Assembly (NCBI RefSeq): GCF_011305535.1
Contig: NZ_CP049905.1
Location: forward strand, 4,028,001 to 4,092,000
DNA from: Diaphorobacter sp. HDW4B
GTDB lineage: Bacteria; Pseudomonadota; Gammaproteobacteria; Burkholderiales; Burkholderiaceae_C
Direction: 5' to 3'
Length of the DNA: 64,000 nt
A model generated the notes under the pieces. It was not told where the DNA came from. It searched no databases and saw only the letters and a list, made by a program, of their open reading frames with translations. The stretch's first letter is position 1. The number at the start of each line of letters is the position of its first letter. Position numbers and translations under genes: made by a program. Of this stretch, positions 17,181-42,875 are shown piece after piece.

Positions 17181-17318
17181 GGTTGGTCGTTTGGAGGTGC
17201 CAACAAGGCCCTTGATACTTTGTTGCGAAGCCTTGCCGTATACGAATACTGTCTGCGGCTTCGCGTCGCGTCTCAAGGGCCTTCTTGGCATTGTGGTGGT
17301 CGATCGTAGGCTCGCTCC
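17181..17318. repeat. Dispersed long-hairpin element, copy 1 (pairs with 42719-42875)
   Basis: A 17-base left arm (17199-17215) pairs with a right arm (17273-17289) at 16 of 17 positions. Inside lies a conserved 36-base core (17227-17262) with its own GAAGCC/GGCTTC stem and TGCCGTAT...ATACTGTCTGC loop. The second copy at 42.7 kb has the same core. Its outer arms differ at four positions, each matched by a compensating change on the opposite arm. Both copies end in CGTAGGCTCGCTCC. It occupies the middle of the 442-base gap between the two receptor genes; I see no gene in that gap. The sequence between 17400 and 17548 probably carries a promoter for the second receptor. Confidence 0.75.
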
Positions 17319-17548
17319 GCTTCGGAGGCCCGCTCCGGCAGAGTGGGGCTTGGTTGCGTTGCCTATGTTCATGTTCATGTAAACAACAGGGCAGTCAAAA
17401 AACTGTCTTCTCCCGCTACCTTGGCTCGATTTGTGCATATATTTGCAACACGCCTGAAACATTGACTTGGCTCATGGCTGTTTCGCATTGCTTTCTGGAT
17501 TCATTGGTTTTTAGCGCTCTCCCACTATTCAACAGAGGAATCACCACA

Positions 17549-18706
17549 ATGACTGATCTTCAAAAACGTTCTCTCATCAAGGTTGCTGCGCTGTCCGCAG
17601 TGGCCGCTGCGGCCATGGTTGGTTGCGGCAAGAAGGAAGAGGCTCCGGCGCCTGCTCCCGCGCCAGCACCGGCTGCTGCCGCTCCGGCTCCGGCACCCGA
17701 GCCGCTGAAGATTGCGTTCGCATACGTCGGCCCGGTCGGTGACGGTGGCTACACCTTCGCGCACGACGGTGGCCGCAAGGCGCTGGAAAAGGAATTCGGC
17801 GACAAGATCAAGACCACCTATGTGGAAAGCGTGCCAGAAGGTGCCGACGCCGAGCGCGTGCTGCGCGACATGGCCACGCAAGGCAACAAGCTGATCTTCG
17901 GCACGACTTTCGGCTACATGGACATCATCCAGAAGCTGGCCCCCGAATTCCCCGATGTGAAGTGGGAACACGCCACCGGCTACAAGAGCGGCCCGAACTC
18001 GGCCACTTACGACTTCCGCACGTATGAAGGCGCCTATCTGGCCGGCATCATCGCGGGCGCGATGACCAAGTCCAACACGCTGGGCGTGGTCGGCTCGGTG
18101 CCGATCCCTGAAGTGCTGCGCAACATCAACAGCTTCACGCTGGGCGCGCAATCGATGAACCCCAAGATCAAGACCAAGGTGGTCTGGGTGAACGAGTGGT
18201 TTGCACCGCCAAAGGAAACCGAAGCCGCCACGTCGCTGATCAACGGTGGTGCCGACATTCTGTTCCAGAACACCGACTCGGCCGCCGTGCTGAAGACCGC
18301 CGAAGAAAAGGGCAAGCGCGCCTTCGGTTGGGATTCCGACATGACTGCCTACGGCCCCAAGGCTCACCTGGGCTCGGCCATCTTCAATCCGGCTGGCTAC
18401 TACATCAAGACCACCAAGGACGCACTGGAAGGCAAGTGGGCCACCCAGCAATCGTGGTGGGGCGTGAAGGAAGGCGCGATCGACATGGTCTCCATGGCCG
18501 AAGACGTGCCAGCCGAAGTCAAGGCCAAGGTCGAAGAAGTGAAGAAGGGCCTGGCCGACGGCTCCTTCAGCATCTGGAAGGGCCCGATCGCAGGTCAGGA
18601 CGGCAAGGAACTGATCGCAGCCGGCACCGTGGCTGACGACGCCTTCCTGAAGGGCGTGAACTTCTACGTCAAGGGTGTGGAAGGCAAGGTGCCAGGCGGC
18701 AAGTGA
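17549..18706 (+). CDS. BMP-family substrate-binding lipoprotein 2 (tandem paralog)
   Basis: 385 residues, ATG at 17549 behind AGAGGAA. Signal peptide with lipobox MVGC and Cys26, a longer Ala/Pro linker than its neighbour (about residues 31-52), then a BMP domain opening PLKIAFAYVGPVGDGGYTFA and sharing GAYLAGIIAGAMTKSNTLGV and NEWFAPPKETEAATSLINGG with receptor 1. The two are clear tandem duplicates, so one transporter probably has two receptors. The 442-base gap with a repeat element suggests the second copy can be expressed separately. An in-frame stretch upstream of 17549 lacks signal-peptide character and is not used. Confidence 0.92.
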   Translation: MTDLQKRSLIKVAALSAVAAAAMVGCGKKEEAPAPAPAPAPAAAAPAPAPEPLKIAFAYVGPVGDGGYTFAHDGGRKALEKEFGDKIKTTYVESVPEGADAERVLRDMATQGNKLIFGTTFGYMDIIQKLAPEFPDVKWEHATGYKSGPNSATYDFRTYEGAYLAGIIAGAMTKSNTLGVVGSVPIPEVLRNINSFTLGAQSMNPKIKTKVVWVNEWFAPPKETEAATSLINGGADILFQNTDSAAVLKTAEEKGKRAFGWDSDMTAYGPKAHLGSAIFNPAGYYIKTTKDALEGKWATQQSWWGVKEGAIDMVSMAEDVPAEVKAKVEEVKKGLADGSFSIWKGPIAGQDGKELIAAGTVADDAFLKGVNFYVKGVEGKVPGGK

Positions 18707-18725
18707 TTCTGACTGCCTCGCAATG

Positions 18726-18758
18726 ACAAAGGCCGCTTGTTAGCGGCCTTTGTTTTTG
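18726..18758. terminator. Strong bidirectional terminator after the purine importer operon
   Basis: Perfect 12-base stem ACAAAGGCCGCT / AGCGGCCTTTGT with loop TGTT, followed by TTTTG. It lies between convergent genes. Confidence 0.9.
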
Positions 18759-18785
18759 TGCGTCCATCGAATCGCGTGAGCTTGA

Positions 18786-20111
18786 TTACTTGCCCATGCG
18801 GTCCAGCAGGCTGTACCAGGCCACGCCCGCAGCGATGTAGAAACGCTGCATGCCATGCATGGGAATCGGCTGGATGGTCGAGATCGGAAACGGGCAGGAT
18901 TGCGCGCTCTTTCCTTCGACCAGTGCTGCGATTTGCTGACCCATGCAGGTGGCCAGTGCCACGCCGCGACCGTTGTAGCCCAGAGCGAGCGTGATGCCGG
19001 GCGCAGGCTGGTGGATGTGGGGCATGAAGTCGCGCGTGACGGCGATGCGGCCCGCCCAGCGGTACTCATATTCCACCTTGCCCAACTGCGGAAACATCAG
19101 TTCGAGCGAGCGCTCCAGATGTGCAAAGTCCGTTGCGCCCTGCGGGTCGGCGAAGTGCCCGCGTCCACCCATCAGCAGACGGCCTTGCGCATCTTTGCGG
19201 AAGTACAGCAGCAGTCGTTGCGATGTGGAGCCGGTCTCGCCTTTGTCCAGAATACCCGCACCCTTTGCCCCCAGCGGCTTGGTGGCAATGATGAAACTGT
19301 TGGCGGCCAGCACGGTGCGCGCGAGGCCAGGCCAGAGCCCGTCGGAATAGCCGTTGGTGCCGATGACGACCTGCTGCGCCTTGACCTTGTGGCCCGTGGC
19401 GGTGGTGGCGATCCAATGGTTGCCTTGGCGCTCCAGCAGGGTGACCGGCGTCTGCCCATGCACCCGCACGCCCTTGTCCAGCACGGCGCGCGCGAGTCCG
19501 CGTGCATAAGCCAGTGGTTGAATGCCGCCTGCGCGGCCATCGAGCCAGCCGCCTGCGAACGTGGTCGTTCCCATGCGTTTGGCGAGTGCGCTGCGGTCCA
19601 GCATCTCGACCTTCACGCCGCGCTTTTCCCACTGCCTTGCACGTGCATGCATGCCTGTGACGGCCTCGTCGGTGTAGCCGACCTGCAGCCAGCCTGCGCG
19701 AACGGGCGCGCAGTCGATGTGGTGGCGCTTGATCAGATCGAACACGAGATCGCCCGAGGCCGAGACGGTCTCGATCAGCGCTTCGCCTTGTTTGGCGCCG
19801 AACTTCTGGATCAGCTCGTCGGGGTCGTATTTCAGTGTCGGATTGACCTGACCACCGTTGCGTCCCGACGCGCCCCAGCCGGGCTCGTGCGCATCAAGCA
19901 CGCAGATGTTCGCTCCGGTGTCCGCGAGATGCAATGCGGTGGACAGGCCGGTGTAGCCCGCACCGATGATGAGCACGTCGGTGCTGATCGATTCTGTGAG
20001 TGCGGGCGTGGGCGGCGCTGCGGGCGCGGTCGCTGCCCACAGCGAAGTGGCCATGGGATGTGATGTGACGGAGCGCACGGATTGGTCCGGCGCTGTGCTC
20101 TGCGAGGTCAT
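18786..20111 (-). CDS. FAD-dependent amine oxidoreductase, PuuB-like
   Basis: 441-residue flavoenzyme of the DAO family. After about 40 variable residues comes the Rossmann ADP-binding motif [19 protein letters not shown] and the signature [15 protein letters not shown], typical of gamma-glutamylputrescine oxidase-like proteins. Later [20 protein letters not shown] and [19 protein letters not shown] form the FAD C-terminal contact. Such enzymes oxidise an amine or N-substituted amino acid to an aldehyde with release of H2O2. Its ATG overlaps the stop of the ABC ATPase gene (ATGA), tying it to the importer. The exact substrate is unknown. Confidence 0.88.
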
Positions 20112-20857
20112 GCCGCATCCCTTCCGACGGGTGCGTGCAGAACACGGCGCAGAAAGTCCTGTGTGCGGGCATGCGTTGGCGCGCCCAGCACCTGCGATGC
20201 GGGGCCTTCTTCGCAGATGCTGCCGCTGTGCAGAAAGCAGACGCGGTCCGCCACTTCGCGTGCAAAGCCCATTTCGTGGGTCACGACGATCATCGTCATG
20301 CCTTCGTTGGCGAGCTGTCGCATCACTTCAAGCACGTCGCCCACGAGCTCGGGGTCGAGCGCGGAGGTGGGTTCGTCGAACAGCATGGCTTCGGGCTTCA
20401 TCGCCAGCGCGCGGGCAATCGCCACGCGTTGCTGTTGACCGCCCGAGAGCTGCGGCGGCATGGCGTGCGACTTCTGGTCGAGGCCGACCTTGCGCAGCAG
20501 CTCCATGGCTTCTTCGCGGGCTTTTTCCTTGGGTTCCTTCTTGACCTGAACAGGGCCTTCCATCACGTTCTCCAGCACCGTGCGGTGCGGGAACAGATTG
20601 AAGCGCTGGAACACCATGCCCATGCGACGGCGCAGCAAGTGGATGTTGCTGGCAGTGTTGTCCACCACTTCGCCGAACGCGCGCACCTCACCGCCCTGGT
20701 AAGTTTCGAGACCGTTGATGCAGCGAAGCACGGTGGACTTGCCCGAGCCTGAAGGGCCGATCAGGCAGACCACTTCGCCGCGCTGCACGTTCAGGCTCAC
20801 GTCATGCAGCACGCGGTGGTCGCCGTAGGACTTTTCCAGATTCTTTATCTCGATCAT
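20108..20857 (-). CDS. Polar amino-acid ABC transporter ATPase (GlnQ/HisP-like)
   Basis: 249-residue ATPase. Walker [15 protein letters not shown]-loop [17 protein letters not shown], signature [20 protein letters not shown], Walker [16 protein letters not shown], and switch His in [11 protein letters not shown]. All catalytic elements are present. The start overlaps the permease stop by four bases, and the gene ends four bases inside the oxidase gene, so permease, ATPase and oxidase form one coupled message. Confidence 0.95.
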
Positions 20858-21519
20858 GGCTTTCTCTTTCCTGCTCCAAATCGCTTTTCAATGCGGCGAA
20901 GCATGCCCACCAAAGGCAGGCTCATCGCCAGATAGAGCAGGGCCACGAGCGTGTAGACGGTCATGTTCTGGAACGTGGACGAGGCGATCAACTGGCCTGC
21001 GCGCGTCATCTCCGCCACGGTGATGGTGGAGACCAGCGACGAGTCCTTGAGCATCATCACCAGCGTGTTGCCGTAGGGCGGCAGCGCGATGCGGAAGGCC
21101 TGTGGCAGGATCACGCGGCGCATCAGCATGGCCGGGCGCATGCCCATGGCGAGGGCCGCTTCGCGTTGGCCGGGATCGACCGCTTCGATGCCCGCTCGGA
21201 AGTTCTCGGCCTGGTACGCGGAGTAGGCGATGCCCAGACCGATCACGCCCGCCTGGAAGGCGCTGAGCTGAATGCCGAAGTCCGGCAGCACGAAGTAGAT
21301 GTAGAAGAGCTGCACGATGATGGGCAGCCCGCGTATGACGTTGATGATGGTCGAGGACACCATCGACACCGCCTTGATGGGCGAGAGCTTGCCCAGTGCG
21401 AGCACCAGACCGAGCACGCTCGAGAGCAGAAAGGCCAGCACGGTGACCTGCACCGTGACGACCGCGCCCTTGAGCAGGATCGGCAGGAAATCGCTTGCGT
21501 GTTGAAGAAAGTCTTGCAT
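20854..21519 (-). CDS. Polar amino-acid ABC transporter permease (HisM/GlnP-like)
   Basis: 221-residue inner-membrane permease with about five helices. The family EAA loop reads [20 protein letters not shown], which docks on the ATPase. The N-terminal part has [20 protein letters not shown]. Only one permease gene is present, so it should act as a homodimer. It lies 24 bases after the receptor gene and overlaps the ATPase gene. Confidence 0.94.
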
Positions 21520-21543
21520 GAAACTACCGAGTGCTCAGCGGAC

Positions 21544-22317
21544 TCAGATGCCCCACTTCTTGGTGATCTGTGCCAGCGTGCCGTCGGCCTTGATGGTGGC
21601 GATGGCCTTGTTGATGCGGTTCAGCGTTTCGGTGTCGCCCTTGCGCACGATGAGGCAGACGTCGCTCACGTTGGTGGACTTGTAGCCATTGGCCATCTTC
21701 ACGCCCTGAAAGGCTTTCTGGCTGATCTGATAGACCATGATCGGCTGATCGCCCACGGCAGCCTTGATGCGGCCGAGTGCCAGGTCGCGCGACATGTCGG
21801 CCACGGAGTCGTAGGTGCGCACTTCCTTGAAGATGCCTTTTTTCTGCAGCATGTCCACGAAGATGGTGCCGACCTGTGCGCCGACCACTTCGCCTTTGAG
21901 TTCGTCAAGTGTCGGGTAGTTGCGGTTGTCGTCGGCCTTGACCATCAGGCCTTCGCCATACGAGTAGACCGGTTCGCTGAAGTCCACCACTTGCTGACGC
22001 GCGGCGGTCTTGAGCATGGCCGCTGAAATCACGTCGATCTTGCTGGAGGTGAGGGATGGGATCAGTGCCGCGAAAGCGGTTTGCTGAATCGTCGTCTGAA
22101 AGCCGCCAGCCTTGCCCACGGCTTGCACGGTGTCGACCATCATGCCCTGAATGCTGTTGCTCTTGATGTCCAGGAAAGTGAACGGAATGCCGGTGGCCGT
22201 CGCGCCGACGTTGAGATTCGCGGGGGCGGAGCCCTGTGCTGCAGCGAAGTTGAACGCGGCGGCAGCACCGAGTCCGATGGCGAGGCGAAGAGCGGAACGG
22301 CGGATGAAGGATGGCAT
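21544..22317 (-). CDS. Amino-acid/amine ABC transporter substrate-binding protein
   Basis: 257 residues, first gene of the importer-oxidase operon. ATG at 22315-22317 behind AAGGAG; signal peptide MPSFIRRSALRLAIGLGAAA ending near FAAAQG. The mature domain is SBP_bac_3 type: NVGATATGIPFTFLDIKSNS, GMMVDTVQAVGKAGGFQTTI, VDFSEPVYSYGEGLMVKADD, and LGRIKAAVGDQPIMVY. Residues after FSEPVY take the position of the conserved Arg/Asp that clamps alpha-amino acids, and I do not see the usual Arg, which leaves an amine or modified amino-acid substrate possible. Confidence 0.9.
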   Translation of the reverse strand: MPSFIRRSALRLAIGLGAAAAFNFAAAQGSAPANLNVGATATGIPFTFLDIKSNSIQGMMVDTVQAVGKAGGFQTTIQQTAFAALIPSLTSSKIDVISAAMLKTAARQQVVDFSEPVYSYGEGLMVKADDNRNYPTLDELKGEVVGAQVGTIFVDMLQKKGIFKEVRTYDSVADMSRDLALGRIKAAVGDQPIMVYQISQKAFQGVKMANGYKSTNVSDVCLIVRKGDTETLNRINKAIATIKADGTLAQITKKWGI

Positions 22318-22444
22318 GTGAAGACTCCTTGAACAGACAGAAGTGGAAGGTGGTGATCCCTGTCGGATGCACCGTTTCGGGGCGACCTTCCGTGGCGAAC
22401 TTGCCGAGTGATGGTCGCGCAGGCAACTTAGCAAGAACCATGCA

Positions 22445-22516
22445 ATGATCGATATCAAACACCCAAAAGTGAATAAGTAAAAACCACTAATAGATTTTGT
22501 AGTATCGATATTCGAT
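22445..22516. promoter_or_regulatory. Two palindromic candidate operators between the importer operon and the IclR gene
   Basis: First, ATGATCGATATCAA at 22445-22458, with TGAT/ATCA arms, one base short of an FNR-type consensus. Second, the perfect palindrome ATCGA-TAT-TCGAT at 22504-22516, just upstream of the IclR start. The surrounding stretch is markedly AT-rich compared with its neighbours and must hold both divergent promoters. Either site could be the IclR operator. Confidence 0.4.
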
Positions 22517-22546
22517 ATTTCAAATGTGAAGTTAAACTCGCCGCTC

Positions 22547-23344
22547 ATGACCAATGCGCCCTCGCTCGACGATGAATCGAACCCGCTGTTCAACCAGTCT
22601 CTGGAGAAGGGGCTGGCCGTGCTCTGCGCATTCAGCGCGCAGCGGCGCACCATGACGCTGGCTGATCTGGCCGAGGCGGCGGGCATCAGCAAGAGCTCCG
22701 CGCAGCGCATGGTGTTCACGCTGGAGAGCCTTGGTTTCGTGCGCAAGCATCCCAAGACGCGGCGCTATCAACTCACGCCGCGCGTGATGCGCATCGGCTT
22801 CAATTACTTGGCCGCCAATCCGCTGATCGATCTGGCGAATCCCTATCTTTCGGAGCTGACCAACGCGACCACCGAGACCACCTGCCTTACCGAAGTGGAT
22901 GGGCTGGAGATGGTCTATGTGGCGCGCTTCGTCAGTGCGCAGTTCGTTCCGGTGCATATGCCGATCGGCAGCCGCATCCCCATGTATTGCACGGCCTCTG
23001 GGCGAGCGTGGCTCAGTGCCTTGCCCGATGAGGAGGCGCTGGCGCTTATCCGAGCGAGCGACCGGGTGACGCACACGCGCTTCACCATCACTGACGAAGA
23101 TGCTTTGATGCAGGACCTGCGCGAGGCACGTCAGCGCGGCTACGCCATCAATCGCGAAGAGCTGTTTCTTGGCGACATGACGCTCGGCGCGCCGGTGCTG
23201 GGCAGCCACGGGCGGCCAGTGGCGGCGGTGCATATCGTCGCACCCACCAGCCGCTGGACGCTGGAAGAGGCGGAGGCGCGTCTGGGGCCATCGCTGCTGG
23301 CGTGCGCTCGCTCGCTGAGCAACTCGGTCCGCGCACTGGATTAG
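22547..23344 (+). CDS. IclR-family transcription regulator
   Basis: 265 residues. The winged helix near residues 16-80 reads NQSLEKGLAVLCAFSAQRRT then LAEAAGISKSSAQRMVFTLE and LGFVRKHPKTRRYQLTPRV. The effector domain contains GSRIPMYCTASGRAWLSALP and the characteristic GYAINREELFLGDMTLGAPV. ATG 22547 is used; a GTG at 22526 would add seven residues. Divergent from the amine importer-oxidase operon, so probably its regulator; it may also control the cupin-Rieske-deaminase genes on its own strand downstream. Confidence 0.9.
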   Translation: MTNAPSLDDESNPLFNQSLEKGLAVLCAFSAQRRTMTLADLAEAAGISKSSAQRMVFTLESLGFVRKHPKTRRYQLTPRVMRIGFNYLAANPLIDLANPYLSELTNATTETTCLTEVDGLEMVYVARFVSAQFVPVHMPIGSRIPMYCTASGRAWLSALPDEEALALIRASDRVTHTRFTITDEDALMQDLREARQRGYAINREELFLGDMTLGAPVLGSHGRPVAAVHIVAPTSRWTLEEAEARLGPSLLACARSLSNSVRALD

Positions 23345-23422
23345 CGCATCGCATGGTGCATTCGCACCGACAACGACAACGACAACACAGTTTTCACAGA
23401 CCCCAAAAAAGGAGTTCAGGTT

Positions 23423-23776
23423 TTGAGCATTCAGGTTATTTCGCGCGATGCAGCCGTGGCATCGTTCAAAGACAACGGCACTGTCGCAATCCCGCTGAGC
23501 GAGCCCGCTTGCCAGCTTCGTGGACTCGACGTGGCGATTGCCGGTCGTCCTGAGGTGGACACCGGGTTCTGGGAATGCGCTGAAGGCCAGTTCCGCCGGG
23601 CCGTGGATACCGGTGAGGTGATGTATATCCTTGAAGGCTCGGGCAGTTTCATGCCCGATTCGGATGATGAACCCACCATCGAATTCAAGGCTGGCGACAC
23701 GCTGTTCTTCCCGCCTTTCACGCGCGGCGTGTGGGACATTCGCGAGAAGGTGCGCAAGCTGTATGTGATGGTGTGA
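23423..23776 (+). CDS. Small cupin protein (DUF861/Cupin_3 type)
   Basis: 117-residue single-domain cupin starting at TTG (23423), chosen because AAAGGAG lies eight bases before it and no other start gives the whole domain. It has the compact cupin pattern DTGEVMYILEGSGSFM then FKAGDTLFFPPFTRGVW, and the domain family includes ureidoglycine aminohydrolase-like and EutQ-like proteins. Classical metal-binding histidines are mostly missing, as often in DUF861 proteins. Function unknown. It sits 78 bases after the IclR gene and ends at its own terminator. Confidence 0.75.
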   Translation: MSIQVISRDAAVASFKDNGTVAIPLSEPACQLRGLDVAIAGRPEVDTGFWECAEGQFRRAVDTGEVMYILEGSGSFMPDSDDEPTIEFKAGDTLFFPPFTRGVWDIREKVRKLYVMV

Positions 23777-23891
23777 GGCACGCATCTTGCGCCCCGTTCG
23801 GGTGCAATCAGCCAAGCGCCGCAGTGGGCCATAAGTCCTGTGGCGAGCGAGTTGGCACCCACTTGGCGTAAGATCGCGCCACGCTCCAAAG

Positions 23892-23913
23892 GCCGCCCTC
23901 GGGCGGCTTTTTT
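23892..23913 (+). terminator. Intrinsic terminator after the cupin gene
   Basis: GCCGCCC-TC-GGGCGGC stem followed by six T. Confidence 0.9.
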
Positions 23914-23948
23914 GTATTTGGAACACAAGAATTTCAGGTAGCCCCCCC

Positions 23949-26002
<2,054 letters not shown>

Positions 26003-26008
26003 AAACAG

Positions 26009-26240
26009 CATCTCGCGAAGTCGCGAGATGCCGGCACGAGCAACGCGAAGTGCCGAATCACACCTCTTCCAGACTGACTTGCGGCAAGCTGTTTGAACGG
26101 AGCGCCTCCGGCGCGCAGTGAGTTTTGCCGCAGGTATTCAAAGCGATTTTTGGTGACTTTTTGGCGCAAGCAAAAAGTTACTCGCCCGCCGGGGCGAGAC
26201 CCGGCCTCCGCAAACAACCGCCTCGCAGCGGCCCAAAAAA
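26009..26240. repeat. Dispersed multi-hairpin element, copy 1 (pairs with 42929-43180)
   Basis: A string of five hairpins after the deaminase gene. (1) CATCTCGCGA/TCGCGAGATG at 26009-26030. (2) GGCAC/GTGCC just after. (3) GCGCC/GGCGC near 26103. (4) CTTTTTG/CAAAAAG at 26157-26177. (5) CTCGCCC/GGGCGAG at 26181-26198. The second copy has the same order of hairpins, the shared words GAACGGAGCGCCT, TTTTGGTGACTTTT and AAAAGTTACTC, and compensated arm changes in hairpins 4 and 5. I see no coding potential here. It lies between two convergent genes, so some of these hairpins may also serve as terminators. Confidence 0.75.
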
Positions 26241-26248
26241 GCAAAGAA

Positions 26249-27115: not shown

Positions 27116-27221
27116 TCTTGTGAAATGGGGCTTCGGCTTGTTCATGCACGCGTGGCATGCATGAAGAAAGGCAGAAGGAAAAGGTGCGGAATTGTAGGGC
27201 GTGATGTGGCTGTGTCGAGGA

Positions 27222-27800: not shown

Positions 27801-27831
27801 GATTTGACGAATTTACTATACGCAAATAAAC

Positions 27832-27839
27832 TTGCGCAA
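27832..27839. promoter_or_regulatory. Candidate operator in the XRE-cupin/permease divergent promoter
   Basis: TTGCGCAA, a perfect 8-base palindrome in the 63-base AT-rich gap, preceded by a related TACGCAAA half about 13 bases away. A plausible site for the adjacent XRE regulator. Confidence 0.3.
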
Positions 27840-27863
27840 ACGAAATTTCAATGGAATGGCGAA

Positions 27864-29297: not shown

Positions 29298-29306
29298 TTA
29301 ATTGAC

Positions 29307-30834: not shown

Positions 30835-30856
30835 GCGTGGTCCTTTCCTGTCATCG

Positions 30857-32700: not shown

Positions 32701-32729
32701 TTTTGAAGTCCTCCTGAGTTGAGCGGGAT

Positions 32730-35391: not shown

Positions 35392-35525
35392 GGGGTCTCC
35401 TGAATGTGCAGGAGCGTGCCTGGCGGGCGCGACGACGACGGTCGGCGCGGACTCTCAGCCGACACGCGGCACAAACAGAGTGGGTTGGTTCGGGAGATTC
35501 TAGGGAGTGCCCGCGCTCGGGGCGC

Positions 35526-35546
35526 ATTCAATAGTTGACCCTGAAT
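35526..35546. promoter_or_regulatory. Inverted repeat upstream of the sulfur operon, in a 333-base divergent gap
   Basis: ATTCA-N11-TGAAT, 135 bases before the cytochrome c gene. The gap 35392-35724 has no gene. It also contains a GGGGC/GCCCC stem at 35640-35666 and the Fur-like site noted separately. The repeat is the best candidate for a sulfur-responsive operator, but the arms are only five bases. Confidence 0.3.
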
Positions 35547-35685
35547 CCAGAGATTGCGGCAACGGGGCGAAGGTGCGGCGACAGCTCGGCAAGAGGTCCC
35601 GCGCAACGCAACCAACGCATGCACTACCGATGTGCAGTGAAGGGGCACTGGCCTAAAAAGCCCCTTTCTGAGCCGCTCTCTTTTA

Positions 35686-35706
35686 GAATGAGAATTAAAA
35701 CCATTC
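35686..35706. promoter_or_regulatory. Fur-like box upstream of feoA
   Basis: GAATG...CATTC arms around an AT-rich centre (AGAATTAAAAC), 18 bases before the feoA start. Composition and 21-base length fit Fur boxes (GAT/AAT repeats), and the regulated gene is a ferrous iron transporter. Confidence 0.5.
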
Positions 35707-35724
35707 AGGACCCTTCAAGAAGAC

Positions 35725-36039
35725 ATGCGAGTACAGCCACAAGAATCAAGCGGACAGCCACTTTCCAGCGGTTTGGCGACTTCTGCCGCCATCGCTCTGG
35801 ATGCGCTTGAGCGCCATCGGGATGCCATCGTCGTGAGCCTCAAGCCCGCAAGCAGCGAGCAGGAACAGTCGCTTGTGCTGCGTCTCATGGAGATCGGTTT
35901 TCTGCCCGGTGAAATGGTGCGTGTGCTGGCCACAGGCTTTCCCGGTGCCGATCCGCTGGCGATTCGCGTGGGGCAGGCCACGTTCGCGCTGCGCCGCGAC
36001 GAGGCCGTGTTTGTGCTGGTGCAGCCAGCCAAGTTGTGA
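35725..36039 (+). CDS. feoA: Ferrous iron transport protein A
   Basis: 104-residue cytoplasmic SH3-like protein of the Feo system. The FeoA core is LVLRLMEIGFLPGEMVRVLA, then DPLAIRVGQATFALRRDEA and VFVLV, with an N-terminal extension of about 35 residues that is unusual for FeoA (typically 75-85 residues). It interacts with FeoB and is required for activity. Starts at ATG 35725 18 bases after a Fur-like palindrome. feoB follows after 51 bases. Confidence 0.93.
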   Translation: MRVQPQESSGQPLSSGLATSAAIALDALERHRDAIVVSLKPASSEQEQSLVLRLMEIGFLPGEMVRVLATGFPGADPLAIRVGQATFALRRDEAVFVLVQPAKL

Positions 36040-36090
36040 CGTCATGAAGAAGACCACAACGAACAAGCAGGACAAGAGGGCAAGAACTCA

Positions 36091-37995
36091 ATGACGAACA
36101 GCGCAAGCAATCAACCACAGGCTTCCGGCGGCGGCGCGCTGCATGTGGCGCTGCTGGGCAATCCCAACTGCGGCAAGACGGCACTTTTCAACTTGATGAC
36201 CGGCGCGCGCCAGAAGGTGGCGAACTACGCGGGCGTGACCGTGGAGCGCAAGGAAGGCTGGTTCACCACGCCGGGCGGCAAGCGCGTGCGCATGCTCGAC
36301 CTGCCGGGCGCCTATAGCCTGCACGCGCAGAGCATGGACGAAGCCGTCACGCGCGATGTGCTGCTCGGTCGTCGTGCGGGCGAGCCGTTGCCCGAGCTGG
36401 TGGCCTGTGTGACCGATGCGACCCACCTGCGACTGAATCTGCGCCTGGTGCTGGAAGCGCGCAATCTCGGCCTGCCGATGGTGCTGGTGCTCAACATGAG
36501 CGACATGGCCAGAAAGCAGGGCATCCAGATCGACGAAGCCGTGCTGTCGCGCGAGCTGGGCGTGCCGGTGATTTCCACCGTTGCGGTCAAGGCCGATGGC
36601 GCGCAGGAACTGCTCAAGTGGATCGATGCCGATCAGCTGAAAAAAGCCATTCCCGCGAAGAAGGAAGAGTTCAAGGGCGATGCGCAGCAACGCGTGCTCG
36701 ATCTCCATGACGAGGTGCGCCGCATTCTCGATCTGGCCGTGAAAGCGCCTGCGGTGCAACTCGCGCGTGACGACAAGATCGACGCCATCGTGCTGCACCC
36801 CGTGTGGGGCTTGGTGCTGCTGGCGGCTTTGCTGTTCCTGATTTTCCAGGCCGTGTTTGCGTGGGCGGCGGTGCCGATGGACTTCATCGACGCGACCACC
36901 GCATCGACCGCCGAATGGCTGAACGGACACATGGCCGATGGCCCGCTGCGCAGTCTGCTGGCCGATGGCGTGATTGCCGGTGCCGGTGGCGTGATCGTGT
37001 TCCTGCCGCAGATTCTGATCCTGTTCTTCTTCATTCTGGTGCTGGAAGATTCGGGCTACCTGCCGCGCGCCGCGTTCCTGCTGGATCGCGTGATGGGCAC
37101 AGTGGGGCTGTCGGGCCGTTCGTTCATTCCGCTGCTCTCCAGCTTCGCCTGCGCGATTCCCGGCGTGATGGCCGCGCGCTCGATTCCAAGTTGGCGTGAC
37201 CGTCTGGTGACCATCATGATTGCGCCGCTGATGACCTGCTCGGCGCGACTGCCGGTGTATGCGCTGCTGATCGGCGCGTTCATTCCCGAGCGCACGATTG
37301 GCGGGATTTTCAATCTGCAGGGTCTGGTGCTGTTCGGTCTCTACATTGCCGGCATCGTGAGCGCCATGGCGGTGGCCTATGTCGCCAAGCGCTTCGGTGT
37401 GCGCCAAGGCCGTGCCGCGCTGATGATGGAGCTGCCCGCGTATCGCTGGCCCAGCATCCGCAGCCTGATTCTGGGCTTGTACGAACGCGCGGTGATCTTC
37501 CTGAAGCGCGTGGGCGGCATCATTCTGGCGCTGACCATCGTGCTGTGGTTCCTGTCCTCGTTCCCCGGTGCTCCCGATGGCGCGACGGAACCCGCGATCA
37601 CCTACAGCCTGGCTGGCCGCATCGGCGAAGCGATGGCGCTGGTGTTTGCGCCGATCGGTTTCAACTGGCAGATCTGCATTGCGCTGGTGCCCGGCATGGC
37701 CGCGCGTGAAGTGGCGGTGAGCGCACTGGGTACGGTGTACGCGCTGTCCGCATCGGGCGACGATACCGCCGCCCAGCTCGGCCCGCTGATCGCAAGCCAG
37801 TGGTCGTTGGCCACGGCGCTGTCGCTGCTGACCTGGTTCATTTTCGCCCCGCAATGTCTGGCCACGCTGGCCACCGTGCGCCGCGAGACCAACAGCTGGA
37901 AATACGTGGCGATCATGGCAGCCTACCTGTTCGGGCTGGCCTACATCGCCTGCTTTATCGTGTATCACGGCGCGGTGGCATTGGGCTGGGGTTGA
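36091..37995 (+). CDS. feoB: Ferrous iron transporter B
   Basis: 634-residue GTP-dependent Fe2+ transporter. N-terminal G domain: G1 GNPNCGKTALFN, G2/G3 region GVTVERKEGWF and DLPGAYSL, G4 NMSD. The membrane part shows two Gate-type segments with conserved cysteines in FACAIPGVMAARSIPSW and FAPQCLATLATVRRET. It is shorter than the ~770-residue E. coli form, as in many betaproteobacteria. ATG at 36091. Second gene of feoA-feoB-small membrane protein. Confidence 0.95.
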   Translation: MTNSASNQPQASGGGALHVALLGNPNCGKTALFNLMTGARQKVANYAGVTVERKEGWFTTPGGKRVRMLDLPGAYSLHAQSMDEAVTRDVLLGRRAGEPLPELVACVTDATHLRLNLRLVLEARNLGLPMVLVLNMSDMARKQGIQIDEAVLSRELGVPVISTVAVKADGAQELLKWIDADQLKKAIPAKKEEFKGDAQQRVLDLHDEVRRILDLAVKAPAVQLARDDKIDAIVLHPVWGLVLLAALLFLIFQAVFAWAAVPMDFIDATTASTAEWLNGHMADGPLRSLLADGVIAGAGGVIVFLPQILILFFFILVLEDSGYLPRAAFLLDRVMGTVGLSGRSFIPLLSSFACAIPGVMAARSIPSWRDRLVTIMIAPLMTCSARLPVYALLIGAFIPERTIGGIFNLQGLVLFGLYIAGIVSAMAVAYVAKRFGVRQGRAALMMELPAYRWPSIRSLILGLYERAVIFLKRVGGIILALTIVLWFLSSFPGAPDGATEPAITYSLAGRIGEAMALVFAPIGFNWQICIALVPGMAAREVAVSALGTVYALSASGDDTAAQLGPLIASQWSLATALSLLTWFIFAPQCLATLATVRRETNSWKYVAIMAAYLFGLAYIACFIVYHGAVALGWG

Positions 37996-38045
37996 TGCAT
38001 CCCCGCCTGCATGCCGTCGTTCTGTGTTGATTGGAGGTTAGTCGA

Positions 38046-38312
38046 ATGACTCAATCATTGGTTGTGGGGCTCATCGTCGTGGCGGCGGTGCTCTACGTGC
38101 TGTGGCGCTACATGCCGCAGAAATGGCGCAATCCGCTGGGCAGGATCAACCCGAAGCTCGCGCAGGTGTCAGGTTGCGGCAGCGGTTGCAGCAGTTGCGA
38201 CAGCACACCAGGCGCTGCCAAATCATGCGGTACGTCGGGCAGCGAGTTCTCGGACAGCAAGCCCGTGACGCTGCACGGAAACATCCGCAACCACATGGGT
38301 GATCAGCACTGA
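38046..38312 (+). CDS. FeoB-associated Cys-rich small membrane protein
   Basis: 88 residues. One N-terminal helix (LVVGLIVVAAVLYVLWRYMP, about 5-24), a basic linker, then a short cluster of cysteines SGCGSGCSSCDS and KSCGTSG. Five cysteines in 20 residues suggest metal handling, possibly iron delivery from FeoB. The usual FeoC winged helix is absent, so this protein may replace it. ATG 38046 follows TTGGAGG. It lies 50 bases after feoB and before a strong terminator, so it belongs to the feo operon. Confidence 0.82.
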   Translation: MTQSLVVGLIVVAAVLYVLWRYMPQKWRNPLGRINPKLAQVSGCGSGCSSCDSTPGAAKSCGTSGSEFSDSKPVTLHGNIRNHMGDQH

Positions 38313-38339
38313 GCGGCTGAGCTTGTTTGAACGCCAGAG

Positions 38340-38378
38340 ACGGCGCAACGTGCGATGAGCAGGTTGCGCCGTTTTCTT
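38340..38378 (+). terminator. Terminator of the feo operon
   Basis: ACGGCGCAAC / GTTGCGCCGT stem followed by TTTCTTTT. Confidence 0.9.
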
Positions 38379-38460
38379 TTGGCCCATGGCAGCGCATGCG
38401 CATGAGTTATTCGTTATTGCCGTTCGATGTGTTGGTGCCGTGTGCGCAACGGGCAAAGAA

Positions 38461-38491
38461 AAAGCCTGCAGCGCAAGGCGTGCAGGCTTTT
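38461..38491 (-). terminator. Terminator of argF
   Basis: AAAGCCTGCA / TGCAGGCTTT stem; on the minus strand it is followed by TTTTTCTTTG. About 27 bases past the argF stop. Confidence 0.88.
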
Positions 38492-38517
38492 GATGATGGT
38501 GCGATGGTCGCGTGCGA

Positions 38518-39441
38518 TCAGGCCGTGAGGCGGCCCAGCAGCAGGTATTCCATCAGCGCTTTTTGCGCGTGCATGCGGTTTTCCGCTTCATCCCAGACGA
38601 CGGACTGCGGACCATCGATCACGTCGGCCATGACTTCCTCGCCGCGGTGGGCGGGCAGGCAGTGCATGAAGAGGGCGTCGGGCTTCGCGGCGGCCATCAT
38701 GTCGGAATCGACGCACCAGTCGGCAAACGCCTTCATGCGCTTTTCGTTCTCGGCTTCGTAGCCCATGCTGGTCCACACGTCGGTGGTGACGAGGTCGGCG
38801 CCCTTGCAGGCTTCCATCGGATCGGCGAAGACCTTGTAGCAGCCTTCGCGTGGCTTGCGGCCGCCGAAGGCGAGCTTCTCGTCGACCTCGTAGCCGCTGG
38901 GCGTGCTGACGTGGACGGTGAAGTCCAGCAGTTCAGCGGCCTGCAGCCAGGTGTTGGCCATGTTGTTGCCGTCGCCCACCCAGGTGACCGTCTTGCCCGT
39001 GATTGAGCCGCGGTGCTCGATGAAGGTGAAGATGTCGGCCAGAATCTGGCAAGGGTGGAACTCGTTGGTCAGGCCGTTGATGACGGGCACGCGCGAGTTG
39101 GCGGCGAACAGCTCGATCTTGCTTTGCTCGAACGTGCGGATCATCACCAGATCGGTCATGCGGCTGATGACCTTGGCGCTGTCGTCGATCGGCTCGGAAC
39201 GGCCGAGCTGGCTGTCGCCCGTGGTCAGATGCACCACGCTGCCGCCGAGCTGGTACATGCCGGCCTCGAAGCTCACACGCGTGCGCGTGCTGGCCTTCTC
39301 GAAGATCATCGCCAGCGTGCGGTCGAGCAGCGGGTGGTACTTCTCGTAGCTCTTGAACTTGCCCTTGATGATGGCAGCGCGCGAGAACAGGTAGTTGTAC
39401 TCGTCCGCGGTGAAATCAGAGAACTGCAGGTAATGCTTCAT
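38518..39441 (-). CDS. argF: Ornithine carbamoyltransferase
   Basis: 307-residue cytoplasmic enzyme making citrulline from ornithine and carbamoyl phosphate. Carbamoyl-phosphate loop KASTRTRVSFE, then MYQLGGSVVHLTTGDSQLG, HPCQILADIFTF, VGDGNNMANTWLQAA, DVWTSMGYE, and the active-site MHCLPAHRGEEV. All key residues are present. Its ATG overlaps the argD stop by one base (TAATG), so argD-argF is an operon. Confidence 0.97.
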   Translation of the reverse strand: MKHYLQFSDFTADEYNYLFSRAAIIKGKFKSYEKYHPLLDRTLAMIFEKASTRTRVSFEAGMYQLGGSVVHLTTGDSQLGRSEPIDDSAKVISRMTDLVMIRTFEQSKIELFAANSRVPVINGLTNEFHPCQILADIFTFIEHRGSITGKTVTWVGDGNNMANTWLQAAELLDFTVHVSTPSGYEVDEKLAFGGRKPREGCYKVFADPMEACKGADLVTTDVWTSMGYEAENEKRMKAFADWCVDSDMMAAAKPDALFMHCLPAHRGEEVMADVIDGPQSVVWDEAENRMHAQKALMEYLLLGRLTA

Positions 39442-40652
39442 TATTTGGGGGCTCCTTCCGAGAGGAACTTCTTGACCAGCGGGGCGAGGCGCGCCACGAT
39501 TTCATCGGCTTCGGCGCGCGACAGAATCAGCGCAGGCACGAGGCGGATCACGCTGTCGGCGGTCACCGAGAACAGCAGGGCGGCTTCTTCTGCGCCGCGT
39601 CCGATCAGTGCGCCGCAGGGACGGTCGAGTTCCACGCCGATCATCAGGCCCTGACCGCGAATGTCCACCACGCCCTTTTCACCGGCGAAGGCGGTCTTGA
39701 GCGCAGCTTTCAGATACTCGCCCACGTCGGCGGCGTTCTGCAGCAGCTTGTCCTCTTCCATGATGCGGATGGTCTCGATGCCTGCGCGCATGGCGAGTGG
39801 GTTGCCGCCGAAGGTCGTGCCGTGGTTGCCCGGCTGCAGCACGGTGGCCGCCTTGCCGCGAGCGACGACGGCACCGATCGGCACGCCCGAGCCCAGACCC
39901 TTGGCCAGCGACATCACGTCCGGCACGATCTCGGCCCACTGGTGGGCAAACCACTTGCCGGTGCGGCCCATGCCGGCCTGAATTTCGTCAACGATCATCA
40001 GCCATTCGTTGGCATCGCACAGCGCGCGCACTTGCTTCATGTATTCGGCGCGCATGGGGTGCAGACCGCCTTCGCCCTGAATGGGTTCCATCATCACGGC
40101 GACGATGTTCGGGTTGCCTTCGGTGGCCTTCTTGAGCGCCTCGATGTCGTTGACCGGCACACGCAGAAAACCTTCGAGCAGCGGGCCGAAGCCTTCGCGC
40201 ACCTTGGGGTTGCCGGTGGCTGTCATGGTGGCGATGGAGCGGCCGTGGAAGGCGTGCTCATAGACCACGATCACGGGCTTTTCGATGCCCTTGTCCACGC
40301 CATACTTGCGGGCGATCTTGATCGCGGCTTCGTTGGCTTCCAGACCTGTGCTGCAGAAGAACACGTTGTCCATCTTGGCGCGCTCGACCACCAGCTTGGC
40401 CAGCACTTCCTGACCGAGCACGTGGTAGTAGTTTGAGGTGTGGATCAGCTTGGCCACCTGGTCCTGCAGCGCGGGCACGAACTTGGGGTGGTTGTGGCCG
40501 AGCGTGTTCACGGCGATGCCAGCCAGCCCGTCGAGGTATTCCTTGCCGTTCACGTCCCACAGTCGCACGCCTTGTCCTCGTTCCAGAGCGATTGGAACGC
40601 GGCCATAGGTGTTCATCACGTGGGGCGAGGCTGCCTCGACAAAAGCGGTCAT
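39441..40652 (-). CDS. argD: Acetylornithine aminotransferase
   Basis: 403-residue PLP enzyme of arginine synthesis (also succinyldiaminopimelate aminotransferase). ATG 40650-40652 is preceded by AGGAG nine bases away and gives the expected N-terminus (MTAFVEAASPHVMNTYGRVP). Seen: VFFCSTGLEANEAAIKIARK, VYEHAFHGRSIATMTATGNP, VDEIQAGMGRTGKWFAHQ, and the PLP lysine in SLAKGLGSGVPIGAVVA. Upstream in-frame codons would add an unlikely cysteine-rich tail. Transcribed with argF, divergent from the DUF3579 gene. Confidence 0.96.
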   Translation of the reverse strand: MTAFVEAASPHVMNTYGRVPIALERGQGVRLWDVNGKEYLDGLAGIAVNTLGHNHPKFVPALQDQVAKLIHTSNYYHVLGQEVLAKLVVERAKMDNVFFCSTGLEANEAAIKIARKYGVDKGIEKPVIVVYEHAFHGRSIATMTATGNPKVREGFGPLLEGFLRVPVNDIEALKKATEGNPNIVAVMMEPIQGEGGLHPMRAEYMKQVRALCDANEWLMIVDEIQAGMGRTGKWFAHQWAEIVPDVMSLAKGLGSGVPIGAVVARGKAATVLQPGNHGTTFGGNPLAMRAGIETIRIMEEDKLLQNAADVGEYLKAALKTAFAGEKGVVDIRGQGLMIGVELDRPCGALIGRGAEEAALLFSVTADSVIRLVPALILSRAEADEIVARLAPLVKKFLSEGAPK

Positions 40653-40998
40653 GCGGAAATCTCCTGACATTGCTGGGAAACACAAAGCTGGCACTATCTA
40701 TCACTATCCTTTGCCAGCACAACGAAATGCAATTTTAGAGGCTGTGCGTGTCACCTTCGTTGAGTATTCCGCATCACTGTCATGCGCCAAGGACGCGTGC
40801 AGCGTTTGGGCTTTTTGCAACAGTGTCCGAGGACAGACACCAGCTTGGTGCTGCGTTATGTGCAAATCGCATCAGATGATGCATCAAATTCATTGCAAAC
40901 GGGCTTTGCAAGGCCATTCAGTCTTGTCTCTTATATAAGAGTTAGAATTCACATCGTGGCGCACGATGCCATGACTCCATAATTACGACGCCTCACCG
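40653..40998. other. 346-base divergent promoter region between argD and the DUF3579 gene
   Basis: No gene. It contains an inverted repeat GCTGGCA-N18-TGCCAGC at 40687-40718 near argD and a perfect 14-base palindrome CTCTTATATAAGAG at 40928-40941 near the other gene, overlapping what looks like a TATAAG-type -10 element. No typical ArgR box (TGAAT-N8-ATTCA) was found, though arginine control would be expected. Confidence 0.45.
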
Positions 40999-41313
40999 AT
41001 GGTCTCTTCCGACGCAAAAGAAGTCTTTATTCAAGGTATCACCCAAGACGGGAAAACCTTCCGGCCCAGCGACTGGGCTGAGCGTCTGGCCGGTGTGATG
41101 AGCCAGTTTCGCCCCGGTGGCGTCAGTCCCGGCAGCCATTTGAGCTACTCGCCATGGTGCGTTCCCACCAGCATGAACGGCGTGAAGTGCGTGATCGTCA
41201 ACCGCGAGCTGCAGAAGTTCGAACCCATGGCGTGGGACTTCGCGCTGAACTTCGCCAAAGACAACGATCTGCAAATAGCGGAAGCCTGCTTGCTTCCCGA
41301 TCCAAAGGCCTGA
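40999..41313 (+). CDS. DUF3579 family protein
   Basis: 104-residue protein of unknown function, found in betaproteobacteria next to arginine genes. Conserved features: IQGITQDGKTFRPSDWAERL, GVMSQFRPGG, and HLSYSPWCVPTSMNGVKCVI, NRELQKFEPMAWDFALNFAK. Full length for the family, with no signal or membrane segment. Divergent from argD. Confidence 0.88.
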   Translation: MVSSDAKEVFIQGITQDGKTFRPSDWAERLAGVMSQFRPGGVSPGSHLSYSPWCVPTSMNGVKCVIVNRELQKFEPMAWDFALNFAKDNDLQIAEACLLPDPKA

Positions 41314-41337
41314 ATCTCAGGCCTTTTTCTTTTTCGA
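41304..41337 (+). terminator. Terminator of the DUF3579 gene
   Basis: AAAGGCCTGA / TCAGGCCTTT stem with loop ATC, followed by TTCTTTTT. It overlaps the gene's last codons. Confidence 0.9.
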
Positions 41338-41549
41338 GTGGCTCCAATCCGCTCCGGTCAATTTGCTCGTGCAGCGGCGGACGCAAGCACCTTTCAATCA
41401 ATGCTGCTCGACGTCGCGCGATGCGTCCCTATGGATGCTTGGTATTTGAGGCCCGCTTGTCTGCTGGCTGGCTGCGGTCGCAATAGACTTGTTGCAAACC
41501 ATCCGAAGGTGTGGGTGGTTCACCAAGCAAGAAAAGGGATTCCGATTTC

Positions 41550-42149
41550 ATGACCAGCACAGCCATCAACCTGTTCACCAAGCGCCGCACGCAATACGCC
41601 CTCGGCAAGAAGCTGCCCATCTCCGAAGCGCAAGTCGAAGCGCTGATTCTGGAGGCCGTGCGCCAGGCACCTTCTTCGTTCAATTCGCAGAGTTCCCGTG
41701 TGGTGGTGCTGTTCGGCGCGCAACACGAAAAGCTGTGGAACATCACCCGTGAAGTTCTGCGCCTGATGGTGCCTGCCGATGCGTTCGTGAAGACCGACGC
41801 CAAGATGGACGGCTTTGCTGCGGGCGCGGGCTCGGTGCTGTTCTTTGAAGACGAAGATGTCATCAAGAAGCTGCAGGCCGATTTTGCCCTGTACGCCGAC
41901 AAGTTCCCGATGTTCTCCGAGCATTCCTCGGGCATGGCGCAATACGCGGTGTGGACTGCGCTGGCCGATGCGGGCATCGGTGCCAGCCTGCAGCACTACT
42001 CGCCGGTGATCGACGAACAAGTCGCCACGACATGGAACATTCCTGCATCGTGGAAGCTGCGCGCCCAGATGCCTTTCGGCTCGAACGAAGCGCCATTTGG
42101 CGAGAAAACCTTCATCGCCGACGACCTGCGCTTCAAGGTCTACCGCTGA
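41550..42149 (+). CDS. Nitroreductase-family protein (YdgI/Frm2-like)
   Basis: 199 residues, FMN-dependent nitroreductase fold. Seen: FTKRRTQYALGKKLPI (FMN phosphate contact), APSSFNSQSSRVVVLFGAQH, MFSEHSSGMAQYAVWTALAD and AQMPFGSNEAPFGEKTF. The short form resembles the nitroreductase-like proteins implicated in stress or lipid signalling. ATG 41550 behind AAAAGGGA; a GTG/ATG upstream would add 13 residues. Single gene, facing rpsT. Confidence 0.88.
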   Translation: MTSTAINLFTKRRTQYALGKKLPISEAQVEALILEAVRQAPSSFNSQSSRVVVLFGAQHEKLWNITREVLRLMVPADAFVKTDAKMDGFAAGAGSVLFFEDEDVIKKLQADFALYADKFPMFSEHSSGMAQYAVWTALADAGIGASLQHYSPVIDEQVATTWNIPASWKLRAQMPFGSNEAPFGEKTFIADDLRFKVYR

Positions 42150-42221
42150 TGTGAGGAGGGGTGGAGGGTGGCGACGATCCAGTCACCTTTCACTTTGTTC
42201 ATTTTGAGAGCGCCCACAAAA

Positions 42222-42249
42222 AAACCGCCTTTCGGCGGTTTCTTCGTTT
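42222..42249. terminator. Bidirectional terminator between nitroreductase and rpsT
   Basis: AAACCGCC-TTTC-GGCGGTTT stem, with CTTCGTTTT on the plus side and A-rich sequence on the other, so it can serve both genes. Confidence 0.85.
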
Positions 42250-42331
42250 TGCTTGCTGACAGCGCACCCGGTACAAACGGCGGGCAATTATCTGTTGAGG
42301 ACAATCACCCGGGCTGTTTGCCTGAAGAGAG

Positions 42332-42631
42332 TCAGGCGGCTGCTGTTGCCAGGGCCTTGACCTTGGCGGACAGACGGCTCTTGTCGCGAGCTGCCTTGTT
42401 CTTGTGGAAGATGCCCTTGTCGGCGATCGTGTCCAGCACGGATTGAGCCTTGGCGAACAATTCAGTTGCCTTGGTTTTGTCGCCAGCCAGAACAGCCTTT
42501 TCGACGTTCTTGACAGCGGTACGGTACTTCGAACGCAGCGATGTGTTTGCTGTGTTCAGTTTGACGTTCTGGCGTGCGCGCTTACGGCCGGACGCCAGAC
42601 GGGGGTTCTTTTTCTTTGGCTTAGATGCCAT
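42332..42631 (-). CDS. rpsT: 30S ribosomal protein S20
   Basis: 99-residue, lysine/arginine-rich small ribosomal subunit protein. [20 protein letters not shown] at the start (a little longer and more basic than E. coli S20), then [20 protein letters not shown] and [23 protein letters not shown] follows AAGGAA. Divergent from murJ across a long gap that holds both repeat elements. Confidence 0.97.
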
Positions 42632-42718
42632 GGTATGTATTCCTTGTGTTCGAGGATGATGTCAGCAAAGCCGAGCATTATAGCCTGAATTTCTTTTTGC
42701 TTGGATTGGCTTGGGGCG

Positions 42719-42875
42719 CTGGTCGTTTTGGGGCGCCAATACAGCCCCTCATGCGTCGTTGTGGAAGCCTTGCCGTATCGACATACTGTCTGCGGCTTCA
42801 CGCCTAGCCTGAGGGGCTGTCTTGGCGTTGGGGCTTCCAACTCGACGGCCCACTTCGCTTCGTAGGCTCGCTCCA
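42719..42875. repeat. Dispersed long-hairpin element, copy 2 (pairs with 17181-17318)
   Basis: Left arm 42735-42751 pairs with right arm 42810-42826 at 16 of 17 positions, with the one mismatch at the same place as in copy 1. Central conserved core 42764-42799 with GAAGCC/GGCTTC stem. The stretch from 42632 to 43305 (674 bases) between rpsT and murJ has no gene. It is filled by this element and by the multi-hairpin element that follows, plus about 120 bases before murJ in which I see nothing definite. Confidence 0.75.

Follow-up and report, generated by a model that had tools for sequence, protein, structure and literature searches.

A dispersed, mismatch-keeping hairpin of Diaphorobacter sp. 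HDW4B, probably a mobile palindrome, and its core in Correia and BOX repeats

Two intergenic hairpins in a 64,000-nucleotide stretch of the genome of Diaphorobacter sp. HDW4B (contig NZ_CP049905.1, positions 4,028,001 to 4,092,000 of the forward strand; hereafter the window, numbered from its first letter) raise the question of what keeps the pairing of two arms when the sequence of those arms is free to change. An original prediction, made from the letters of the window, had described the two as copies of a dispersed hairpin with compensatory arm changes and had offered several identities for it, from a structured RNA to a mobile hairpin. It is argued here that both are, on balance, members of a non-autonomous mobile palindrome of the miniature inverted-repeat transposable element (MITE) type, present in about 100 copies in this genome and falling into one superfamily with the Correia and BOX repeats of other bacteria. 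The two copies and their parts are as follows.

17199..17289, plus strand: copy 1, hairpin element, between two plus-strand paralogues resembling substrate-binding proteins
17160..17176, plus strand: copy 1, upstream accessory hairpin, GAAGCC-TGTTC-GGCTTC
17199..17215, plus strand: copy 1, left arm, 5' side of stem P1 (from sequence and covariation)
17273..17289, plus strand: copy 1, right arm, 3' side of stem P1 (from sequence and covariation)
17218..17222, plus strand: copy 1, outer internal loop, long side, C[TTT]G
17267..17270, plus strand: copy 1, outer internal loop, short side, C[GC]G
17227..17262, plus strand: copy 1, 36-base core GAAGCC..GGCTTC, with inner internal loop C[TT]G / C[TGC]G and GTAT/ATAC apical stem
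42735..42826, plus strand: copy 2, hairpin element, between rpsT-like (minus strand) and murJ-like (plus strand) genes
42735..42751, plus strand: copy 2, left arm
42810..42826, plus strand: copy 2, right arm
42754..42758, plus strand: copy 2, outer internal loop, long side, C[GTC]G
42804..42807, plus strand: copy 2, outer internal loop, short side, C[TA]G
42764..42799, plus strand: copy 2, 36-base core

Direct reading of the window bore out the predicted geometry. The 17-base arms lie 57 bases apart in copy 1 and 58 bases apart in copy 2, and pair at 16 of 17 positions in each; the exception is the sixth pair each time, as C.C in copy 1 and as T.C in copy 2. Apart from this mismatched position, the left arms of the two copies differ at arm positions 8, 9, 14 and 16, and all four differences are matched on the right arm. 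As had also been stated, the two 36-base cores differ at loop bases alone.

The repeat, taken at first to comprise these two copies, proved to be far larger. A pattern describing the core, allowing up to three mismatches, was found 45 + 42 times in the genome, as compared to no occurrence of a reversed-pattern control. Two further genomes from the genus gave 25 and 65 matches to the pattern, and of 150 genomes from the family, that of strain HDW4B included, 24 contained it; the reversed control matched once, in a single genome among these 150. A covariance model built on 49 dereplicated rows (alignment A1) identified 100 copies in the 6.2 Mb genome; the 5.45 Mb contig that holds the window has 99 of them and a second contig has one. 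Given the counts obtained with the pattern, its control and the model, the repeat is not a product of chance. In scans with stricter filters, in which weak matches were lost, the model matched 26 of 249 genomes of the phylum and 48 of 150 genomes of the order, again including this one. Within the window, the model recovered just the two copies, at 17201-17288 and 42737-42825 (4045201-4045288 and 4070737-4070825 of the contig). Overall, the element is an 88-position hairpin with no gene of its own, and the words that its copies have in common in their conserved flanks are lost within some tens of bases from the arms.

Along the plus strand, the order of parts is P1, a C-NNN-G outer loop, P2, CC-TT-G, a GTAC-type stem, C-TGC-GG, P2', C-NN-G and P1', with a 4-bp stem closing a 4-base loop at the apex. 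Both internal loops are 3x2, are inverted relative to each other and are separated by 11-12 bases; we read them as a single motif in opposite orientation, about one helical turn apart. An accessory hairpin like that of copy 1 lies upstream of 33 of 97 copies when a strict pattern is used. In 464 kb of sampled sequence, counting both strands, this pattern gave 20 matches, of which eight were followed by a core, eight lay beside a core on the other strand, two (in locus L235) stood beside a copy whose core the core pattern had missed and two (in L240) were elsewhere.

The claim that pairing rather than sequence is kept was strongly supported by covariation in three alignments. In 97 distinct rows from this genome (alignment A2, assembled from 101 matches in 96 loci with identical rows taken once and the copy on the second contig included), 91.8% of the proposed base-pair cells pair, as compared to 79.3% when columns were shuffled and 30-44% when the arms were slid relative to each other; in 370 cells, both sides have changed. 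In a cross-lineage alignment of 111 distinct rows (A3), the corresponding values were 85.1% paired, 58.2% shuffled and at most 41% slid, with 1020 double-change cells. As A3 was fitted to the covariance model it leans towards the structure, and one of five measures applied to it, further pair types, was no higher than in shuffles. An R-scape-like test, in which substitutions were re-dropped on a FastTree tree, was in line with these values. For A1, comprising 49 cross-lineage rows, 10 of 30 testable pairs were significant, all within the structure, while for A2 there were 11 significant pairs among 31 testable, 10 of them in the structure and the eleventh corresponding to outer-loop positions 19 and 99, which face each other.

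Not only pairs but also mismatches are retained. The outer loop occurs in the 97 A2 rows as CTTTG/CGCG (43), CGTCG/CTAG (28), CGTTG/CTAG (12), CTTCG/CTCG (8) and other forms (6), and yet Watson-Crick combinations were found in one of 97 rows at facing positions 19/99, where column composition predicts 46.7, and in one of 97 rows at positions 21/98, where 17.2 would be expected. Two mismatches in the arms are T.C in 84 and 96 of the 97 rows, with covarying pairs nearby. The inner loop varies little (CTTG/CTGCG in 79 of 97 rows), in part because it belonged to the search pattern. Outside that pattern, the A1 columns conserved at 90% or more are C18, G22, T23 and alignment columns C71 and G74. 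The element can fold as a long imperfect hairpin, and its pairs and the mismatches of its outer loop are both maintained. In matches found by the model alone, the apical stem varies and many retain both loops or close variants of them. Weak model matches from other Pseudomonadota (L219, L221, L224 and L227) likewise retain the loops or close variants with different apical stems, which hints at a superfamily extending beyond elements with the GTAC stem.

Which strand folds was considered from the rare wobble pairs and from folding energies. With the two mostly T.C pairs left out, the rows from this genome contain 10 G.T and 22 A.C combinations in 2,813 cells; in A3, there are 50 G.T and 116 A.C in 3,037 cells (p 3e-7). 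Since an A.C combination on the strand read corresponds to G.T on its complement, folding is more likely to involve the minus strand. Unpaired bases are 42-44% A on the minus strand, as compared to 12-16% A and 43-44% T on the plus strand. Folding energies computed with DNA parameters are lower for the minus strand in both the own and the cross-lineage sets, as are those computed with RNA parameters in the cross-lineage set. In 12 tRNAs from the sampled loci, 9 of 144 pairs are G.T, such that wobble is far rarer in the element than in these molecules, which argues against a purely RNA-level constraint.

The core was also found well beyond the Comamonadaceae. An exact pattern scan of species genomes returned at least 119 stretches, including some from Neisseria, Streptococcus and Avibacterium. 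Among the matches listed, the flanks place the core at the apex of palindromes whose arms are unrelated, with several arm types in Comamonadaceae, TTCC..GGAA in Accumulibacter and Rhodoferax, TATAGT.. in Neisseriaceae, TACTCTTCGAAAATC.. in Streptococcus, and further types in S. suis and Avibacterium; many Betaproteobacteria hold such palindromes with the shared core and unrelated arms. When the model was scored in the genomes behind 15 core-holding loci, with up to 150 candidates considered per genome, so that high counts are lower bounds, there were from 1 to at least 147 matches per genome. Although the original prediction had recognised no named family, two such families, Correia and BOX, were found to carry the core.

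Correia elements (CREE, NEMIS), palindromes of about 105 bp present in more than 100 copies, have the same core and the same internal loops as the window element, and one model covers both. At least 94 matches were obtained in Neisseria gonorrhoeae and at least 147 in N. sicca. Among the top-ranked of these (10 of 94 and 10 of 147), all 20 lie between inverted Correia repeats, defined as in PMC2649163, and the two Neisseria loci originally encountered are also so enclosed. The arms of Correia elements are the TATAG[CT]GGATTAA repeat, which is absent from both window copies as read. A longer version carries 50 bp of additional internal sequence and can include an IHF site (PMC2649163). In strain FA1090, 71 of 113 CREEs are in front of genes (PMC2649163); CREEs are thus often placed before genes, whereas the copies in strain HDW4B are mostly behind them.

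The BOX repeats of S. pneumoniae and S. mitis share the core as well, as seen in the named S. pneumoniae record L133. With the same scoring, 25 matches were obtained in the genome of that record and 30 in S. mitis. The BOX primer TCAAACCACGTCAGCTTCAC, given in the BOX paper (PMC3049150), coincides with the left side of a model match in L133. This link thus pertains to one S. pneumoniae record, the 25 matches in its genome and one primer, rather than to all BOX copies. BOX differs from the window element in its arms, in the phylum of its host and in its modular boxA-boxB-boxC make-up. In our reading, boxB occupies the place of the apical loop; no boxB-like insert is present in the two window copies. 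Locus L062 of S. suis may be the S. suis BOX-type repeat described in the same paper (PMC3049150). Taken together, the window element, Correia and BOX suggest one ancient folding unit across distant bacteria.

Of repeats in closer hosts, BRE, described in Bordetella, Polaromonas, Delftia and Acidovorax, is about 90 bp long, mostly intergenic, sometimes tandem and present in partly the same host families (PMC3110155). From its description, BRE may be the betaproteobacterial form of the element seen here, although its orientation is reported to be independent of the replication fork (PMC3110155). Tandem copies were observed in L403 (Comamonas sp. B21-038; four copies in 221-bp steps) and in L397 (Janthinobacterium sp. 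344; three copies in steps of about 115 bp), and these resemble the tandem behaviour reported for BRE (PMC3110155).

In terms of gene context, 97 copies were considered, namely the 99 on the main contig less those at 2848991 (near the end of a locus) and 4587098 (the weakest), with genes being called by a simple codon-based open reading frame caller. None of the 97 lies inside a called gene. After correction, which added genes beside four copies, 36 copies are same-sense, 30 antisense, 28 convergent and three divergent. The added genes are, judging from the letters of their proteins, presumably rpsT (beside copy 2), rpsP, a thioredoxin-like gene and a gene for a small membrane protein. As such, 94 of 97 copies are behind at least one gene; copy 1 follows a plus-strand gene, while copy 2, which lies between what we take to be the S20-like gene rpsT and the MurJ-like gene murJ, is among the three divergent cases. 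Divergent gaps hold three of 97 copies, as compared to 23-35% of element-free gaps by three measures, this expectation resting on the uncorrected calls (38, 30, 26 and 3).

Copy orientation follows replication rather than transcription. The dnaA gene lies at 2.628 Mb, and the skew changes direction in the interval from about 2.26 to 2.52 Mb. Of 99 copies, 73 have the same orientation as the leading strand (p 2.5e-6), and 72 do so when another terminus is assumed. Separated by gene context, again using the uncorrected calls, the bias is 26:11 for ++ gaps, 21:10 for -- gaps and 21:4 for convergent gaps (96 copies), or 26:9, 19:6 and 20:4, respectively, when 200 kb on either side of the origin are excluded (86 copies). 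The direction is the same in every context for both origin choices, being weak in the antisense context (p 0.07, or 0.015 with the origin region excluded). A congener shows a bias in the same direction (25 of 34 copies, p 0.009).

The notion of a mobile hairpin, raised in the original prediction, held in terms of copy number and of target duplications in a related lineage but not of any duplication in the element's own lineage. Among 32 elements of the TTCC..GGAA lineage, of the Accumulibacter/Rhodoferax type, 22 are bordered by identical 3-bp flanks, all TNA, two of the 22 being a single site in two assemblies. The model matched 31 of the 32, including all 22 with TNA.

The reading that we judge more likely than not is that of a MITE-like palindrome within a Correia and BOX superfamily, including a proposed manner of spread and of core retention. 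Copies would spread as double-stranded DNA, with transposases acting in trans, and the arms would track whichever transposase is available. Retention of the core would be due to a conserved host factor that binds or tolerates the folded minus strand, be it RNA or single-stranded DNA. Survival would occur mainly behind genes, where promoters and coding sequence are left uncut. Palindromes are unstable, and from this and the DNA folding energies it is proposed that the orientation placing the stabler minus-strand hairpin on the lagging-strand template would be lost more often, such that orientation would be set by replication. Surviving copies would then mostly be those in which the minus strand, which folds better when DNA parameters are used, is kept away from that template. 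A bolder version, offered tentatively and with some doubt, would have Correia, BOX and dozens of undescribed repeats be vehicles for one ancient module, the hairpin with its two inverted loops and retained outer mismatches, that outlived its transposases across Pseudomonadota and Bacillota, with the folded minus strand docking a dyad-symmetric, near-universal host factor (e.g., an HU/IHF-type dimer or RNase III) and arm swapping opening new genomes.

Several points weigh against the MITE-like reading. The host-factor step is purely inferential. Neither a target-site duplication nor a clean empty site was shown in the lineage of strain HDW4B, where the sole candidate empty site, in D. caeni, has imprecise edges. 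In that species, at least 12 of 17 copies found by pattern (13 of 18 when one found by the model is added) have an element at the matching place in strain HDW4B, a tally for which sequence of the latter was available in part; mobility in this lineage may therefore be old. A search of 30 loci, all from the TTCC..GGAA lineage, for a parent transposon ending in the arms of the element gave none. The core columns included in the search pattern are invariant by construction in A1, and because copies are not independent, p-values are nominal. For the copies from this genome, RNA parameters give the plus strand a slightly more favourable folding energy than the minus strand (-43.0 vs -41.4 kcal/mol), and four further genomes showed no significant orientation bias (G402, 16 of 24; G128, 7 of 13; G099, 7 of 10; G317, 5 of 8). 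Finally, gene conversion or copying between family members probably contributes, since some changes are blocks present in other copies too.

That the element instead serves its host as RNA in 3' untranslated regions, where it would protect or end messages or offer an RNase III site under selection on expression, is unlikely. The placement of 94 of 97 copies behind a gene, the A-rich loops of the minus strand and the wobble asymmetry in favour of that strand, the persistence of copies at orthologous sites in D. caeni and the published binding and cleavage by RNase III in the case of Correia (PMC2649163) are all in agreement with such a role. Yet, gene orientation is nearly even (36/30/28) where replication orientation is not, wobble is very rare (10 G.T and 22 A.C in 2,813 cells, as compared to 9 G.T of 144 in tRNAs) and the window gave no Rfam match at the gathering score. 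Purely RNA-level selection was downgraded on the strength of the rare wobble, the even gene orientation and the target duplications. The narrower idea of a stand-alone small RNA, antisense RNA or riboswitch seems very improbable: the structure is conserved by covariation and BRE, which may be the same element, overlaps an 80-nt transcript in Bordetella (PMC3110155), but some 100 copies with variable arms lie beside many different genes. The riboswitch-like role suggested in the original prediction was not supported, given the lack of a gathering-score Rfam match in the window and the position of most copies behind genes.

Compensation could also be mutational, arising from arm-to-arm template switching at replication or from gene conversion with no need for folding, an explanation that is improbable. 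Here, 13 orthologous pairs of copies are informative. Arm differences lacking a match on the opposite arm, which the original prediction had named as counter-evidence, were for the most part not what was seen, in that 29 changed pairs are compensated, with three becoming wobble pairs and 18 breaking. The excess of double changes over wobble intermediates (29 vs 3), C-G to G-C swaps included, and the recurrence of similar arm types in separate copies, with some orthologous copies differing by a whole arm type, are as a mutational route would have it. Against this, templating would erase both the arm mismatches (T.C in 84 and 96 of 97 rows) and those of the outer loop, all of which are kept, and covariation holds between lineages with unrelated arms. 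Lastly, REP and BIME elements with their RAYT (Y1) transposases are likewise dispersed hairpins, often downstream of genes, and a REP-like single-stranded DNA element moved by such an enzyme at replication forks would account for conserved irregularities and replication-linked orientation. One Y1 transposase match does exist in the genome, namely L302 (1405924-1406211 of the main contig), the only Y1_Tnp match; a short inverted stretch nearby is unlike the element. Still, no copy was found within the 3.3 kb locus, which extends 1.5 kb to either side of this gene at 1.406 Mb, the related lineage has TNA target duplications, and the present hairpin, with its different core and with no RAYT gene beside a copy, is at about 90 bp two to four times the length of REPs, which measure 20-40 bp (PMC3733652). 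The idea of a REP-protein site, which the original prediction had included, was accordingly abandoned as very improbable.

As an object, the element favoured here is a MITE-like repeat, a known kind. Correia, in 1988, and BOX, in 1992, were reportedly described as separate repeats of two pathogens. No link or common origin of the two was found in the openly licensed literature searched, and the available parts of PMC3049150, PMC10969869, PMC2229807 (reviews), PMC2267715, PMC3733652, PMC2649163, PMC5039591 and PMC3110155 contain no such connection; searching the literature with strings of core sequence returned noise alone. A mismatch-keeping core shared by Correia, BOX and many other repeats thus appears to be new, and the superfamily is apparently undescribed. 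If the core is truly common to repeats of many free-living bacteria, its function becomes testable outside pathogens, with the conserved loops in hundreds of natural variants providing a ready mutational map. The family, moreover, allows compensatory pairing and the retention of mismatches to be followed within a single genome with unusual clarity.

Other observations concern single loci. Rfam gave no match in the whole window at curated gathering scores. A loose search placed CRISPR-DR4 (E value 3.7, sub-threshold) at the upstream hairpin of copy 1. Across 20 loci, such a search gave seven sub-threshold matches; among them, Scr3202 (E value 3.9) reached half of its gathering score, at a position overlapping tandem copies in L308. 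Copy 1 had no BLAST match among plasmids and phages; the exact core pattern occurs in one IMG/VR contig. At 2109849 of the main contig (L298), a copy contains an expanded GGCTGC-type repeat on the 3' side of P2. The paralogous substrate-binding-like lipoprotein genes that flank copy 1, at 15964-17106 and 17549-18706, have a DNA similarity of 70-75% in the stretches that were reported. Another dispersed repeat, GGCACGAGCAACGCGAAGTGCCG..CACACCTCTT, is found at 26033-26068 and 42955-42990, with 92% identity over 36 bases, the latter occurrence lying just downstream of hairpin copy 2.

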